Shown piece by piece: positions 13,218 to 60,541 of a stretch of DNA of 64,000 nt. The translations under genes were made by a program, and so were the position numbers. The stretch's first letter is position 1. Every line of letters starts with the position of its first letter. The notes beneath the pieces were generated by a model. The model had not been told where the DNA came from. It did not search any database and saw only the letters and a list, made by a program, of their open reading frames with translations. The DNA is from Flavobacteriaceae bacterium YJPT1-3 (GTDB lineage: Bacteria; Bacteroidota; Bacteroidia; Flavobacteriales; Flavobacteriaceae). Location: contig CP123444.1 of the NCBI GenBank assembly GCA_029866965.1, forward strand, positions 971,501-1,035,500. Reading direction: 5' to 3'.

Positions 13218-15752
13218 TTAGTCTAGTTGTTCTTCGCGATAAGCGCTTAAGTTCTTGTGAATCTGTATTATACGATAATTTTCTGAGGAAATGGGAATGG
13301 ATTCTCGCTTAATTGCGTAGGTCTTATCAGTCCTCAGAAGCTCTGCAAAACCCTGCGCCCCCATCTGGGTATTAAAGCCGTGCACCACCACAAAAAGGGT
13401 ATCCCGATTATAAACATCCACAGAGGCTGTGCTCTTCCTATACCCCAGGGTGTCTACCGCCTGGCTTATTTTTTCTCGCAGGAGCTGCGCTTGTTCCCGT
13501 TCGTCTTTGGCGAGGGGAAACAGCAATTTCCATTTACGTGAAATTGTTTCGTCTGCAAAGGTCGTAAATGCCAGTTGAGGCACTTGTGTTTTTAATAATT
13601 GTTGCGCCTGTTTGCCCTCAGCGCTGTTCGGATAGGTCACCGCAATAAAATTCAAGGCTTTTGCATAAGCCTCCTGTCCTTCCAGTCGGCCCAGGGCCAT
13701 GGCCTTGAGTAGTTCAAGTTTGGGCACGCTTGGCAGTCCGGTATAGGCGTCAATCAGCACATCGGCTTCTGTCAGCACCGCTTCATATTCCTGAGCTTCA
13801 AACTGCTTATACAGTTTTTTGTACTGGGCTTCCGGGGTGTCTGTGGCTGCTTCCAGCTGCGCATTGGGATTGCTGATGATCGCTGCATAGCGCGAGTCGG
13901 GGTAGTTGAGCAGGAGTTCTTCTTTGAGGGATTCCGCTTTCGCGAAAGCGTTTTCTGCCCGATACAGCTGATACAAATAGTACTTTGCAGGAAGAATCAA
14001 TCGCTCTGCCGGCTCATTGGCCAGTAGCTGCTCCAGACGTGCAATAGCAAGATTGTTCTCTTTAAATTTTTCTTTGTAGATCAATCCCAGTTGATAATAG
14101 GCCTGGTCACGCTCCTGGATCAAACTGTCGAGGATCACCGGATCTTGTGGTACTTCAGCCATATAAACATCCCGGTCGAAACGGGAGGCCTGATCAGCGG
14201 GAATGTCTGCGGTAATGTCCGGCAAACCAGGTACTCCCGCATTTTGTACCGGCCGCGTGGTGGAGAATCTCCAATTATCTTGTAGGGGTCGATCGCCCCA
14301 TTTTTGGCGGAAACGGTCTTTGCCGTAGGCCGTTGCCGTCGTGTTGTAGAAATAAAAGGCTCCTCCGGCTTGACTCTGCTGCTGTTTTTGGTAAAACTCA
14401 TCATTACGAATCCCAGCGTCCTGTGTTGCTGCCGCCTTTTCTTCTGCCGCTTTCAACTCGGCAATATAGTCATCAAAGTAAGCCTCCCGCTCCGGTACAC
14501 TCATTCGGGCCAGGCGAAGTATGCTGTCGTTGGTCGTAGCCAGGGTTTCTAATCGAATCACCTCGGTGAGGTTATCCTTTTTCTTTTTAATTTGTCGATA
14601 GGCACGATCTCTGGCATCCAGTGCAGTGAGGGTACTGTCGTAATACGCTCCCGCCTGCAGGTAGGCCGCCTGATCAAAATTCAGATCGCCCAGAGCGACG
14701 TAGTTCAGTGATTTTAAATACGTATCCCGCCCCGGACTGCGCAGGGATTTATTGTAGTAGACCACGGCGCTGTCTTGTTGATCCTGTGCAGCAAAATACA
14801 GGGCCGTCTGATAATAGATTTTATCCAGGAAGGGTCTGTTCTCGCGATTTTCCTCGAGCTCGGTGAGCAGTTCGCGAACCAGTTCCACTTCCCCTCGATC
14901 GGCGTCGAAATTGTCAATCTGTCTGAGTTGGGCATTGATCAGGTATTCTCTGGGTGTTTTACGATTCAGAGCGATCACTTCCTCATAAGCCATGGTCGCC
15001 GTATCCACGTGGCCTAATTGTTCGTACAGTTGTCCGGTAATGTACCAAAACCGACCTTTCTGTTCATTATTTCTGGTACTCTGGGCTGCTCGCACCATGT
15101 ATACGGCAGCACTATCCGGTTGATCTGTATTGATAAATGCCTGCGCCAGAGTCGATGTAGCATCGGCGTAATCCTGATCACTGAGGTTCTTTTCTTCTAA
15201 TTCGAGCAGACGACGTAAGTTTTTAATCGCTACCTCTTCATTGTTCAAGCGAAGATTCGTTTTGGCCTTCCAGACGTTAGCCTGAGCAATGTTGTTGCTT
15301 AAGGGATTGGTGGCCAGAATGTAGTTAAAGGACTCCAGCGCCGGAATAAAGCGCCCATCGTAATAGCGTGCCTTTCCTAACATCATGAACGCCTCATCGA
15401 TTTGCGGGTTGCGTTCCTTACCGTCAATTTCCATGCTGTGCTTCTGGATGGCCTTGATGGCTTTCTCTTCAGCGCGTTCAAAGCTGGGAGTTTTAGATTT
15501 TCCCGGAAGTGCAATAGTCTCAAACTGCTCCAGGCGCTCTACCGGAAGAAGCTCCCAAAAATTGTCCTGATAATTGGCTACCACTGTTTCCAGACCTTCT
15601 TCAAGCGCTAAATTTCCATTATAGAGCGTATTGTACTCTGTAGTAACGGCATGAAAGTTCCTGTTGATGAACGTATCGTTCTTTCGCGAACACCCCCAGG
15701 CAGCGGCAATGAGGAGGATTAAGAGAATTATGTAGGTGGTGTGTTTATTCAA
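13218..15752 (-). CDS. sprE: SprE/PorW-like TPR lipoprotein of gliding motility and type IX secretion
   Basis: 844 residues. The lipoprotein signal ends AAAWGC with Cys at about residue 21. The next segment (FINRNFHAVTTEYNTLYNGN) and the long array of TPR helices resemble Flavobacterium johnsoniae SprE and Porphyromonas PorW, outer-membrane lipoproteins needed for type IX secretion and gliding. The C-terminus has a short globular domain (VVVHGFNTQMGAQGFAELLR). Synteny with a bactofilin and the atp genes agrees with my memory of flavobacterial genomes. A copy of the recurrent palindrome (13936-13949) encodes AFAKA. No other type IX gene is in the window. Confidence 0.82.
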   Translation of the reverse strand: MNKHTTYIILLILLIAAAWGCSRKNDTFINRNFHAVTTEYNTLYNGNLALEEGLETVVANYQDNFWELLPVERLEQFETIALPGKSKTPSFERAEEKAIKAIQKHSMEIDGKERNPQIDEAFMMLGKARYYDGRFIPALESFNYILATNPLSNNIAQANVWKAKTNLRLNNEEVAIKNLRRLLELEEKNLSDQDYADATSTLAQAFINTDQPDSAAVYMVRAAQSTRNNEQKGRFWYITGQLYEQLGHVDTATMAYEEVIALNRKTPREYLINAQLRQIDNFDADRGEVELVRELLTELEENRENRPFLDKIYYQTALYFAAQDQQDSAVVYYNKSLRSPGRDTYLKSLNYVALGDLNFDQAAYLQAGAYYDSTLTALDARDRAYRQIKKKKDNLTEVIRLETLATTNDSILRLARMSVPEREAYFDDYIAELKAAEEKAAATQDAGIRNDEFYQKQQQSQAGGAFYFYNTTATAYGKDRFRQKWGDRPLQDNWRFSTTRPVQNAGVPGLPDITADIPADQASRFDRDVYMAEVPQDPVILDSLIQERDQAYYQLGLIYKEKFKENNLAIARLEQLLANEPAERLILPAKYYLYQLYRAENAFAKAESLKEELLLNYPDSRYAAIISNPNAQLEAATDTPEAQYKKLYKQFEAQEYEAVLTEADVLIDAYTGLPSVPKLELLKAMALGRLEGQEAYAKALNFIAVTYPNSAEGKQAQQLLKTQVPQLAFTTFADETISRKWKLLFPLAKDEREQAQLLREKISQAVDTLGYRKSTASVDVYNRDTLFVVVHGFNTQMGAQGFAELLRTDKTYAIKRESIPISSENYRIIQIHKNLSAYREEQLD
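13936..13949. repeat. GCTTTCGCGAAAGC palindrome, copy 3
   Basis: Exact copy with flanking C/G (16-bp palindrome), inside the sprE-like gene; encodes AFAKA. Confidence 0.95.
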
Positions 15753-16070
15753 GCCAAACCGGTTCGATGGATACTACTACTAACTGATTCGCACCCTGTT
15801 TAGTATAAAGGGCTTAAAAATACGTTTCTTTTAGTAGTTACCGCACTTAAGCGCAAAAAGGAGGGGCTATAAAAGAGAAATGTCCTTGTACCGTTCTATT
15901 TTTTTAACGCTTCGACTTGAAAAGACTACCGTTAATCGAAAAGGGGGTTTTTCTCCTTGGTTCGAAAATTTATCACTTGTATATTGCAGCGTATTCTAAC
16001 AAAACATTAACATTTTAAGAATACTTAGTTAAGTTGGGGAAAATCGGCTTCTGTACAAGGAGGCCGATTT
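15753..16070. other. 318-bp gene-free region
   Basis: The longest stretch without a coding gene. Its left part must hold the promoter of the sprE-like gene (minus strand), though I see no clean TAnnTTTG box there. Its right part holds a plus-strand promoter-like element and a strong hairpin, described separately as a candidate small RNA. No open frame of useful length is visible. Confidence 0.6.
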
Positions 16071-16074
16071 TTAT
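15992..16074 (+). ncRNA. Candidate small RNA with its own promoter and terminator
   Basis: A TTG at 15957-15959 is followed after 20 bp by TATATTGC (15980-15987), an imperfect version of the flavobacterial -7 box, predicting transcription from about 15992. The transcript would contain an inverted repeat GTATTC/GAATAC (15991-15996 and 16019-16024). It ends in a long hairpin (stem AAAATCGGC at 16040-16048 with GCCGATTTT at 16063-16071, extended by inner pairs around the loop GTACAA) followed by T-rich sequence. No gene on the plus strand precedes this hairpin, so it would otherwise terminate nothing on that strand. It could instead serve only as the minus-strand terminator of the ABC operon. 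Confidence 0.35.
16040..16073. terminator. Bidirectional hairpin terminator
   Basis: Stem AAAATCGGC/GCCGATTTT with T runs on both strands. On the minus strand it closes the ABC transporter pair ending at 16071; on the plus strand it would end the candidate small RNA. Confidence 0.65.
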
Positions 16075-16778
16075 TTAACTAGCGCCTCTGAAAAGTAATC
16101 TTCCAATTCTTTAAGTGTAGCTTCGCTTTTCATAATATCTTTTACCACATTCCCTTTTTCAAGCACTACGATCCGCTGACAAACTTCGGTCACATGCATG
16201 AGATCATGGCTGGATATCAGGACGGTCACTTCAGGATCGGCAGCCATCTCTTTGATGATGCCCTTTAGACGAATTTGAGTTGTGGGGTCCAGATTGGCGA
16301 AGGGTTCGTCCAGAATGATCACTTCAGGCTGACCCAAAAGGGCAGCTACTATTCCCACTTTCTTCTGGTTACCTTTAGACAAATCACGCAAGTATTTGCG
16401 CTTACCCAGGATCTCATCATTGAAGAAATCAGAGAAGGACGTGACCATCTTATCCACGTCTGCTTTGTTTTGGCCACGTAACTCGCCAATAAAATAGAAG
16501 TATTCTTCCGGGGTCAGGTACCCAATCAGAAAGCTTTCGTCAATAAAAGAAGAGGTGAATGGTTTCCAGGCTTCGCTCTGGGACACGGTCACTCCTTGAT
16601 TCACAACCTCTCCAGTGGTGGGCTGAATCAAATCCAATAGCAAACTAAAATACGTGGTCTTTCCCGCTCCGTTATTCCCCACCAAACCAAAGGCTTGCCC
16701 TCGGGGAATTTCTAACTGATCGATCCGTAAAACCTCAACTCCCTTATAGCTCTTCGATAAATTGTTTGTAGTAATCAT
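16071..16778 (-). CDS. ABC transporter ATP-binding protein
   Basis: 235 residues with Walker A (GLVGNNGAGKTT, residues ~33-44), a signature motif LSKGNQKKVG, Walker B plus catalytic Glu (VIILDEPFANLD) and the switch His (VLISSHDLMH). It belongs to the ABC-2 exporter-type ATPases. It starts 20 bp after the stop of the DUF5687-like permease, with which it should form a transporter. The substrate is unknown. Confidence 0.92.
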   Translation of the reverse strand: MITTNNLSKSYKGVEVLRIDQLEIPRGQAFGLVGNNGAGKTTYFSLLLDLIQPTTGEVVNQGVTVSQSEAWKPFTSSFIDESFLIGYLTPEEYFYFIGELRGQNKADVDKMVTSFSDFFNDEILGKRKYLRDLSKGNQKKVGIVAALLGQPEVIILDEPFANLDPTTQIRLKGIIKEMAADPEVTVLISSHDLMHVTEVCQRIVVLEKGNVVKDIMKSEATLKELEDYFSEALVK

Positions 16779-60470: not shown

Positions 60471-60541
60471 GGTATCGTGGCCGAGTGGCTAGGCAGTGGT
60501 CTGCAACACCATCTACAGCGGTTCGAATCCGCTCGATACCT
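60471..60541 (+). tRNA. tRNA-Cys (anticodon GCA)
   Basis: The cloverleaf is complete: acceptor GGTATCG/CGATACC, D-arm GCC...GGC, anticodon stem GTGGT/ACCAT with loop CTGCAAC (anticodon GCA), T-stem AGCGG/CCGCT with loop TTCGAAT, and discriminator base T. CCA is not encoded (TCA follows the acceptor stem), so it must be added. Confidence 0.97.

Follow-up and report, generated by a model that had tools for sequence, protein, structure and literature searches.

Does the spacer between two minus-strand genes of Flavobacteriaceae bacterium YJPT1-3 hold a small RNA gene of its own on the plus strand? The question was raised by a preliminary description of the 64,000-nucleotide stretch of DNA analysed here (the window), which pointed to a promoter-like TTG-N20-box, an inverted repeat and a strong plus-strand terminator and expected an RNA of about 83 nt. 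All of these elements are present at 15957-16076 (+), in the order TTG, N20, TATATTGC, a 7-bp stem-loop, an unpaired linker and a strong terminator hairpin, and our prediction of about 84 nt, from ~15991/15992 to ~16075 (+), agrees with the expected length. Judged from the sequence, the chances that a lineage-restricted intergenic sRNA gene with these ends lies here seem evenly balanced.

Layout of the locus

Both genes bordering the candidate RNA lie on the minus strand. The ABC ATPase gene adjoins a gene for a DUF5687 protein, and the best public matches of the ABC protein (71-78% identity) fall nearly all in Flavobacteriaceae genera. On the other side lies a gene that we take to be sprE/porW, as named in the preliminary description; its TPR repeats are consistent with the name. 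The features are as follows.

13218-15752, minus strand: sprE/porW-like TPR gene; a bactofilin gene comes next
15846-15956, no strand assigned: rest of the part of the spacer that, by eye, seems extra relative to 23 of 30 compared loci; no second genomic copy found
15880-15999, plus strand: ATG-started 39-codon open reading frame (ORF), the longest on this strand of the spacer
15957-15959, plus strand: TTG, a -33-like element read from the sequence, 20 nt ahead of the -7-like box
15980-15987, plus strand: TATATTGC, a -7-like box matching the SM5 motif (TAnnTTGY) rather than the sigma-A box (TAnnTTTG)
15991-16024, plus strand: stem-loop 1, 7 bp with a 20-nt A/T-rich loop, within one base of the predicted start at 15992
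16025-16038, plus strand: linker TTAGTTAAGTTGGG, 14 nt, single-stranded in the predicted fold; putative pairing region
16039-16072, plus strand: intrinsic terminator hairpin of 14 pairs, from the predicted fold and a shuffle test
16068-16076, plus strand: U-rich tail TTTTTATTT, overlapping the stem base and the ABC stop codon
16071-16073, minus strand: ABC ATPase stop codon; it overlaps the base of the terminator hairpin
16071-16778, minus strand: ABC ATPase gene (PF00005)

The terminator hairpin and its strand

On the plus strand the hairpin folds at -19.9 kcal/mol (16036-16078) with the tail UUUUUAUUU, and none of 200 shuffles was as good. The minus-strand fold (16030-16075) reaches -12.2 kcal/mol, weaker by 7.7 kcal/mol. 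The two tails contain 7 and 4 T in nine, respectively, where our criterion, with the stem trimmed to the last G-C pair, requires six. A generic terminator scan did not list the hairpin at 16039-16072, because that scan counts T only past the full stem and the T run mostly pairs in the stem base. If the hairpin served the minus strand, its core would begin 4 nt past the ABC stop codon. Considering the T content, the fold energy and this distance, the hairpin looks better suited to plus-strand transcription.

To place this hairpin among others of the same genome, the window and 55 further stretches were surveyed (1.164 Mb, 37% of the genome) with crude gene models made of ORFs of at least 80 codons. 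Among 210 terminator-like sites, 126 follow a gene of their own strand and 25 point away from both neighbours; the remainder lie after an opposite-strand gene and facing a same-strand one (7), inside gene models (46) or at edges (6). Five of the 25 wrong-way sites, the candidate among them, lack six or more T in nine on the other strand. Another of these five (L249) ends a tRNA gene and is preceded by TTG-N18-TATATTTG, and no promoter was called at the remaining three. The strand bias of the terminator, which is independent of the promoter, is the strongest argument for an RNA gene. The criteria for intergenic sRNAs in the excerpted text of PMC7366714 are a start site, read coverage and an intrinsic terminator, and the last of these is found here on the RNA strand.

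The main alternative is that the hairpin is the terminator, partly bidirectional, of a minus-strand DUF5687/ABC operon, with the promoter-like site and stem-loop 1 being due to chance and no plus-strand RNA being made. The hairpin does abut the ABC stop codon, its minus-strand fold still beats all 200 shuffles, and of the 25 wrong-way sites surveyed, 20 qualify on both strands. As for the distance of 4 nt, it is unusual against a median of 25 nt for same-strand gene terminators (n = 131), of which seven are equally close to the stop (at most 6 nt). Against it, the tail on the minus strand reads UUUUCCCC, and the stem is broken there. We regard this alternative as rather unlikely.

Further strand-specific terminators after an opposite-strand gene were seen at eight loci of the same genome and are candidate sRNAs or leaders: L251 11136-11161 (-), L243 6091-6110 (+), L267 15238-15253 (-), L211 19185-19213 (-), L223 6249-6265 (-), L254 17293-17317 (-), L255 1755-1773 (-) and L257 10102-10126 (+). 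An Rfam scan of L251, L211, L254, L255 and L257 gave no match near the terminator site.

Promoter-like elements

Taken as an SM5-like box, TATATTGC predicts a start at ~15992, which is one base away from where stem-loop 1 begins, and the N20 spacing falls inside the TTG-N17-23 range used in the pattern searches. The candidate does not carry the sigma-A promoter of Flavobacteriaceae, TTG-N17-23-TAnnTTTG, and a generic scan listed no sigma-70 promoter there. In Flavobacterium psychrophilum, according to the excerpted text of PMC9723704, the three commonest start motifs are variants of TAnnTTTG, and the SM5 motif is TAnnTTGY with the box at -12 to -5. Mutagenesis at one operon supported the role of SM5, the SM5-type regulon covers LPS, gliding and amino-acid scavenging, and SM4-6 jointly account for 7% of high-confidence starts (PMC9723704).

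Counts upstream of genes, made over 37% of the genome, show an enrichment of TAnnTTTG (114 vs 45.1 expected), also when combined with TTG at N19-21 (21 vs 2.5). For TAnnTTGY there was no enrichment (49 vs 53.6 expected; 3 vs 2.5 with TTG at N19-21), and the candidate's exact type, TAnnTTGC, was below expectation (14 vs 25.5). Besides the candidate, 55.8 kb of spacer strand from a 364-kb sample contain one further instance of the full pattern TTG-N17-23-TAnnTTGY; in 70.6 kb upstream of genes from a larger sample there are eight, against 6.3 expected. The rate is ~0.01-0.03 per 280 nt, or ~0.085 if the canonical box is also allowed. These motif counts lend the candidate promoter no independent support. 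An SM5 class stays compatible with this lack of enrichment because SM4-6 are rare in F. psychrophilum too. The candidate promoter is weak, and its pair of elements is a loose pattern.

The promoter evidence bears on a second alternative, in which plus-strand transcription that is longer or diffuse, running antisense to sprE or starting divergently from its promoter, would end at the hairpin, which would so insulate the ABC gene; there would be a transcript, but no discrete sRNA gene at 15991. This would account for a strand-specific terminator with no canonical promoter nearby: the 300 nt upstream of the terminator core (15745-16044) lack a plus-strand TAnnTTTG, the canonical sigma-A -7 box. 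The same 300 nt, however, contain neither TTG-N17-23-TAnnTTTG nor a second TTG-N17-23-TAnnTTGY, and TTG-N20-TAnnTTGC and the stem at the predicted start would both have to be coincidences. We consider such transcription improbable.

Hardly any weight can be given to a small protein gene, namely the 39-codon ORF followed by the terminator. The ORF has an ATG start and stops 39 nt ahead of the hairpin, but 98% of gene windows have a higher codon score, its own falling in the range of spacer ORFs. A search of 198 other genomes gave no relative at E <= 0.01, Pfam gave no match at E <= 1, and 15745-16044 contain no TAnnTTTG box. The ORF looks non-coding and was rejected as a gene on its codon score and the lack of relatives and of a Pfam match.

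Stem-loop 1 and the overall fold

The arms of stem-loop 1 are GTATTCT (15991-15997) and AGAATAC (16018-16024). Its energy of -5.0 kcal/mol was equalled by 2 of 200 shuffles in a tight 37-nt stretch; when 12 nt of the linker were included, 49 of 200 shuffles were as good and significance was lost. Over the whole of 15957-16038, 189 of 200 shuffles were at least as good, and this region shows no excess of folding. Stem-loop 1 is thus present, with modest strength. The whole 89 nt fold with z = -5.3 (0 of 200 shuffles as good), an excess to which the terminator contributes most.

Spacers in related genomes

The ABC gene was found in 144 of 199 genomes, and 90 of the 144 were examined (30 loci and 60 stretches). 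The gene order DUF5687 - ABC - sprE is common, with sprE beside ABC in 75 of 80 loci. In total, 151 spacers were measured, the window's own included, with 11 of 110 loci dropped (five without adjacent sprE, six with a spacer >700 nt) as well as 8 of 60 stretches that gave no sprE match; the ABC stop in the 60 stretches was set by a rule of thumb, and the two spacer collections overlap in some genomes. Six of the 151 spacers gave a plus-strand terminator call close to the ABC end; the window's own was missed, its stretch ending at the stop codon. A minus-strand terminator was called in 12 of 151, and TTG-N17-22-TAnnTTTG occurred on the plus strand of none of the 151.

Among the 30 loci with the most similar DUF5687 protein (at least 47% identity), 23 have a spacer of 84-142 nt without the candidate unit, five have a longer spacer and two lack an adjacent sprE; the spacers of L038 and L124 are identical. 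By eye, the first ~90 nt of the window spacer (15753-15845) correspond to these short spacers, and the other 225 nt, the candidate included, seem to be extra. None of the 23 short-spacer loci is among the six spacers with a plus-strand terminator. Conservation of the hairpin merely as a minus-strand terminator, which the preliminary description had named as counter-evidence, was therefore not seen. The same 23 loci argue against a DUF5687/ABC operon terminator, with the limit that the minus-strand calls are a total over the 151 spacers.

Searches for the RNA itself were made at several levels. In its own genome, no second copy of the candidate or of the extra segment was found at E <= 0.001, and a near-DNA search with 139 nt in 98 other genomes gave short scattered pieces with a best E of 0.001. 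A one-sequence covariance model was run on 397 sampled family genomes, the own one included, with the strict filters used above 40 genomes. It matched 21 other genomes at E <= 0.1 against ~40 expected on rough E-values, and three at E <= 0.0025 against ~1 expected. Nine of the loci, with 14 matches, were looked at; the eight alignments inspected are carried by the terminator hairpin, and stem 1 has non-pairs in seven of the eight. The match in L203 could form a short stem 1 and is located away from that genome's ABC gene. On 80 ABC-sprE loci the model gave one match, at E = 5, outside the spacer.

A DNA search with the extra segment (233 nt) in the 397 family genomes, with two candidates scored in each, gave nine other genomes at E <= 0.001 where ~0.4 would be expected from the E-values; the best match reached 1.8e-5, and what matches are short pieces (25-58 nt) from various parts of the query. 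In six of the nine genomes the piece overlaps the A/T-rich loop of stem 1. By eye, none of these six has the whole layout; L279 and L277 share part of the promoter-like stretch besides the loop. A 21-nt loop pattern with two mismatches gave 103 rows, the window included, against ~89 for a reversed control (hand count). In 1.164 Mb of the own genome, three other loop-like sites were found at up to four mismatches, against 0-2 in six spacer simulations. With some doubt, we attribute the loop-like matches to composition. Taken together, no convincing homologue was found in the 396 other sampled family genomes, a sample without a congener. The proposal of a free-standing sRNA is partly supported: it agrees with the anatomy and, most of all, with the terminator's strand bias, but its promoter class is unenriched here and no conservation was found.

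Several of the spacers show features of their own. In L040, a Dokdonia MAG, three successive plus-strand hairpins end in a strong terminator at the ABC stop, a layout like that of the window with a different sequence. The word AAGTTGGG occurs in 3 of 151 spacers, the window and L040 included, where shuffled words average 0.15. In L040 it sits inside another hairpin, and this locus was not counted as a homologue. A good plus-strand hairpin with a T run lies at the ABC stop of L057 (one of the 30 loci, with no sprE beside ABC), and a weak A/T-rich hairpin lies there in L038/L124. In L033 and L083 (Salinimicrobium), the ABC-sprE spacer seems by eye to hold a small extra reading frame of the ABC strand next to the ABC stop. 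Insertions into the ABC-sprE spacer may thus differ from lineage to lineage. Upstream of sprE, a motif like AAAAAGAnnTnTATTTTTAC/G (window ~15815-15845, minus strand) recurs by eye in many spacers, possibly as the promoter of sprE or as a site for a regulator. At ~500-540 of L279, a loop-like sequence with one mismatch in 21 stands directly behind TTGTATATTTG and ahead of an open frame, where it may belong to a promoter or leader.

Target screen and proposed mechanism

For possible targets, duplex energies were calculated between the first 50 nt of the candidate RNA and gene start regions. The best target was L213 10439-11773, in genome coordinates G000:C1:510439-511773, with -30.8 kcal/mol, the top of 308 and of 991 genes. 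Among base-shuffled queries, 8 of 133 (308 genes) and 5 of 104 (991 genes) did as well, and 83 of 138 random spacer 50-mers, unmatched in G+C, reached -30.8 kcal/mol or below. For this target the linker and the loop rank 1 and 2 of 308, and 2 and 10 of 991, respectively; the linker alone is unremarkable, its value being reached by 228 of 442 shuffles. The neighbouring sprE and ABC genes do not stand out as targets, with the linker ranking them 169 and 276 of 308. L213 8950-11773 comprises a SusD-like gene and, 7 nt on, a symporter-like gene (SSF, E 0.1, below the cut-off). The screen gave nothing convincing, and L213 is kept as a lead, not counted as evidence.

Neither Hfq nor RRM_1 proteins were found in the genome at E <= 0.001, with controls detected, so neither kind of chaperone would assist the pairing. 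The absence of Hfq and ProQ is discussed for Bacteroides in excerpts of PMC7366714. In the mechanism that seems most likely if the RNA is expressed, a non-standard, SM5-like and possibly alternative-sigma promoter would fire on the plus strand, and the 5' stem would protect or stabilise the transcript. Pairing with mRNAs in trans, independently of Hfq, would use two antisense seeds, the loop of stem 1 and the linker (UUAGUUAAGUUGGG), and the terminator hairpin would form the 3' end. Because the RNA end lies tail to tail with the ABC gene, the RNA might also insulate that gene from plus-strand read-through. The fullest version strikes us as very improbable: a trans-acting and Hfq-independent sRNA would be driven by an alternative-sigma promoter of SM5-like type, and both its linker and its loop would form duplexes across the start codon of the symporter-like gene in L213, so that an SM5-type regulon would be linked to nutrient uptake.

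If real, the candidate would be one more lineage-specific sRNA, in a genome without detectable Hfq, and a test case for the SM5 promoter class beyond Flavobacterium. It would also be an RNA gene beside a presumed type IX secretion gene, missing from the same spacer in the relatives examined. If not real, it shows how an orphan terminator and a weak promoter can mislead.

Comparison with known RNAs

The preliminary description had left open a membership in the Flavo-1 family (RF01705) and had suggested a covariance-model search against Rfam, which gave no family match for the candidate. At gathering thresholds, the sole match in the window is a tRNA at 60471-60541. A permissive search (E <= 10, 15750-16300) gave five sub-threshold matches, of which rli52 was the best (20.1 bits vs a cut-off of 70) and BTnc060 the only Bacteroides sRNA (17.9 bits vs 228.9). 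Flavo-1 is an orphan RNA of Bacteroidetes with a length similar to that of the candidate (76 positions), but is absent from the candidate's matches even at E <= 10, the threshold being 42 bits. The genome's own Flavo-1 over the cut-off lies elsewhere (C1:3129094-3129165, 44.5 bits), and membership is thus unsupported. A second, sub-threshold Flavo-1-like match of the same genome lies at G000:C1:920497-920573 (+) (L228; 33.2 bits vs 42).

In the literature on flavobacterial sRNAs or on sRNAs with SprE/PorW, the locus is unnamed among the matches listed, a comparison that covers PMC9723704 outside its supplementary sRNA tables. The independent transcribed regions of F. psychrophilum in the excerpted text (Rfp1-89, including Rfp18, Rfp36 and Rfp11; PMC9723704) are likewise short non-coding RNAs of Flavobacteriaceae. 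Rfp36 and Rfp11 carry the alternative-sigma motifs SM4 and SM6, respectively, whereas the candidate's box is SM5-like, as compared by description and not by sequence (PMC9723704).

The excerpts of PMC7366714 report 49 high-confidence sRNAs in Bacteroides thetaiotaomicron, with a start site and an intrinsic terminator, 27 of which are strain-specific; lineage-specific sRNAs of this make-up are therefore known from the phylum. GibS and the other high-confidence intergenic sRNAs share with the candidate an intergenic position, an intrinsic terminator, no obvious Hfq and a single-stranded stretch able to pair with start-codon regions (PMC7366714). GibS is ~145 nt long and its 5' part is mainly single-stranded, in contrast with the stem at the predicted 5' end of the candidate (PMC7366714). 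The candidate is a plausible new example of an ordinary kind of lineage-specific sRNA.
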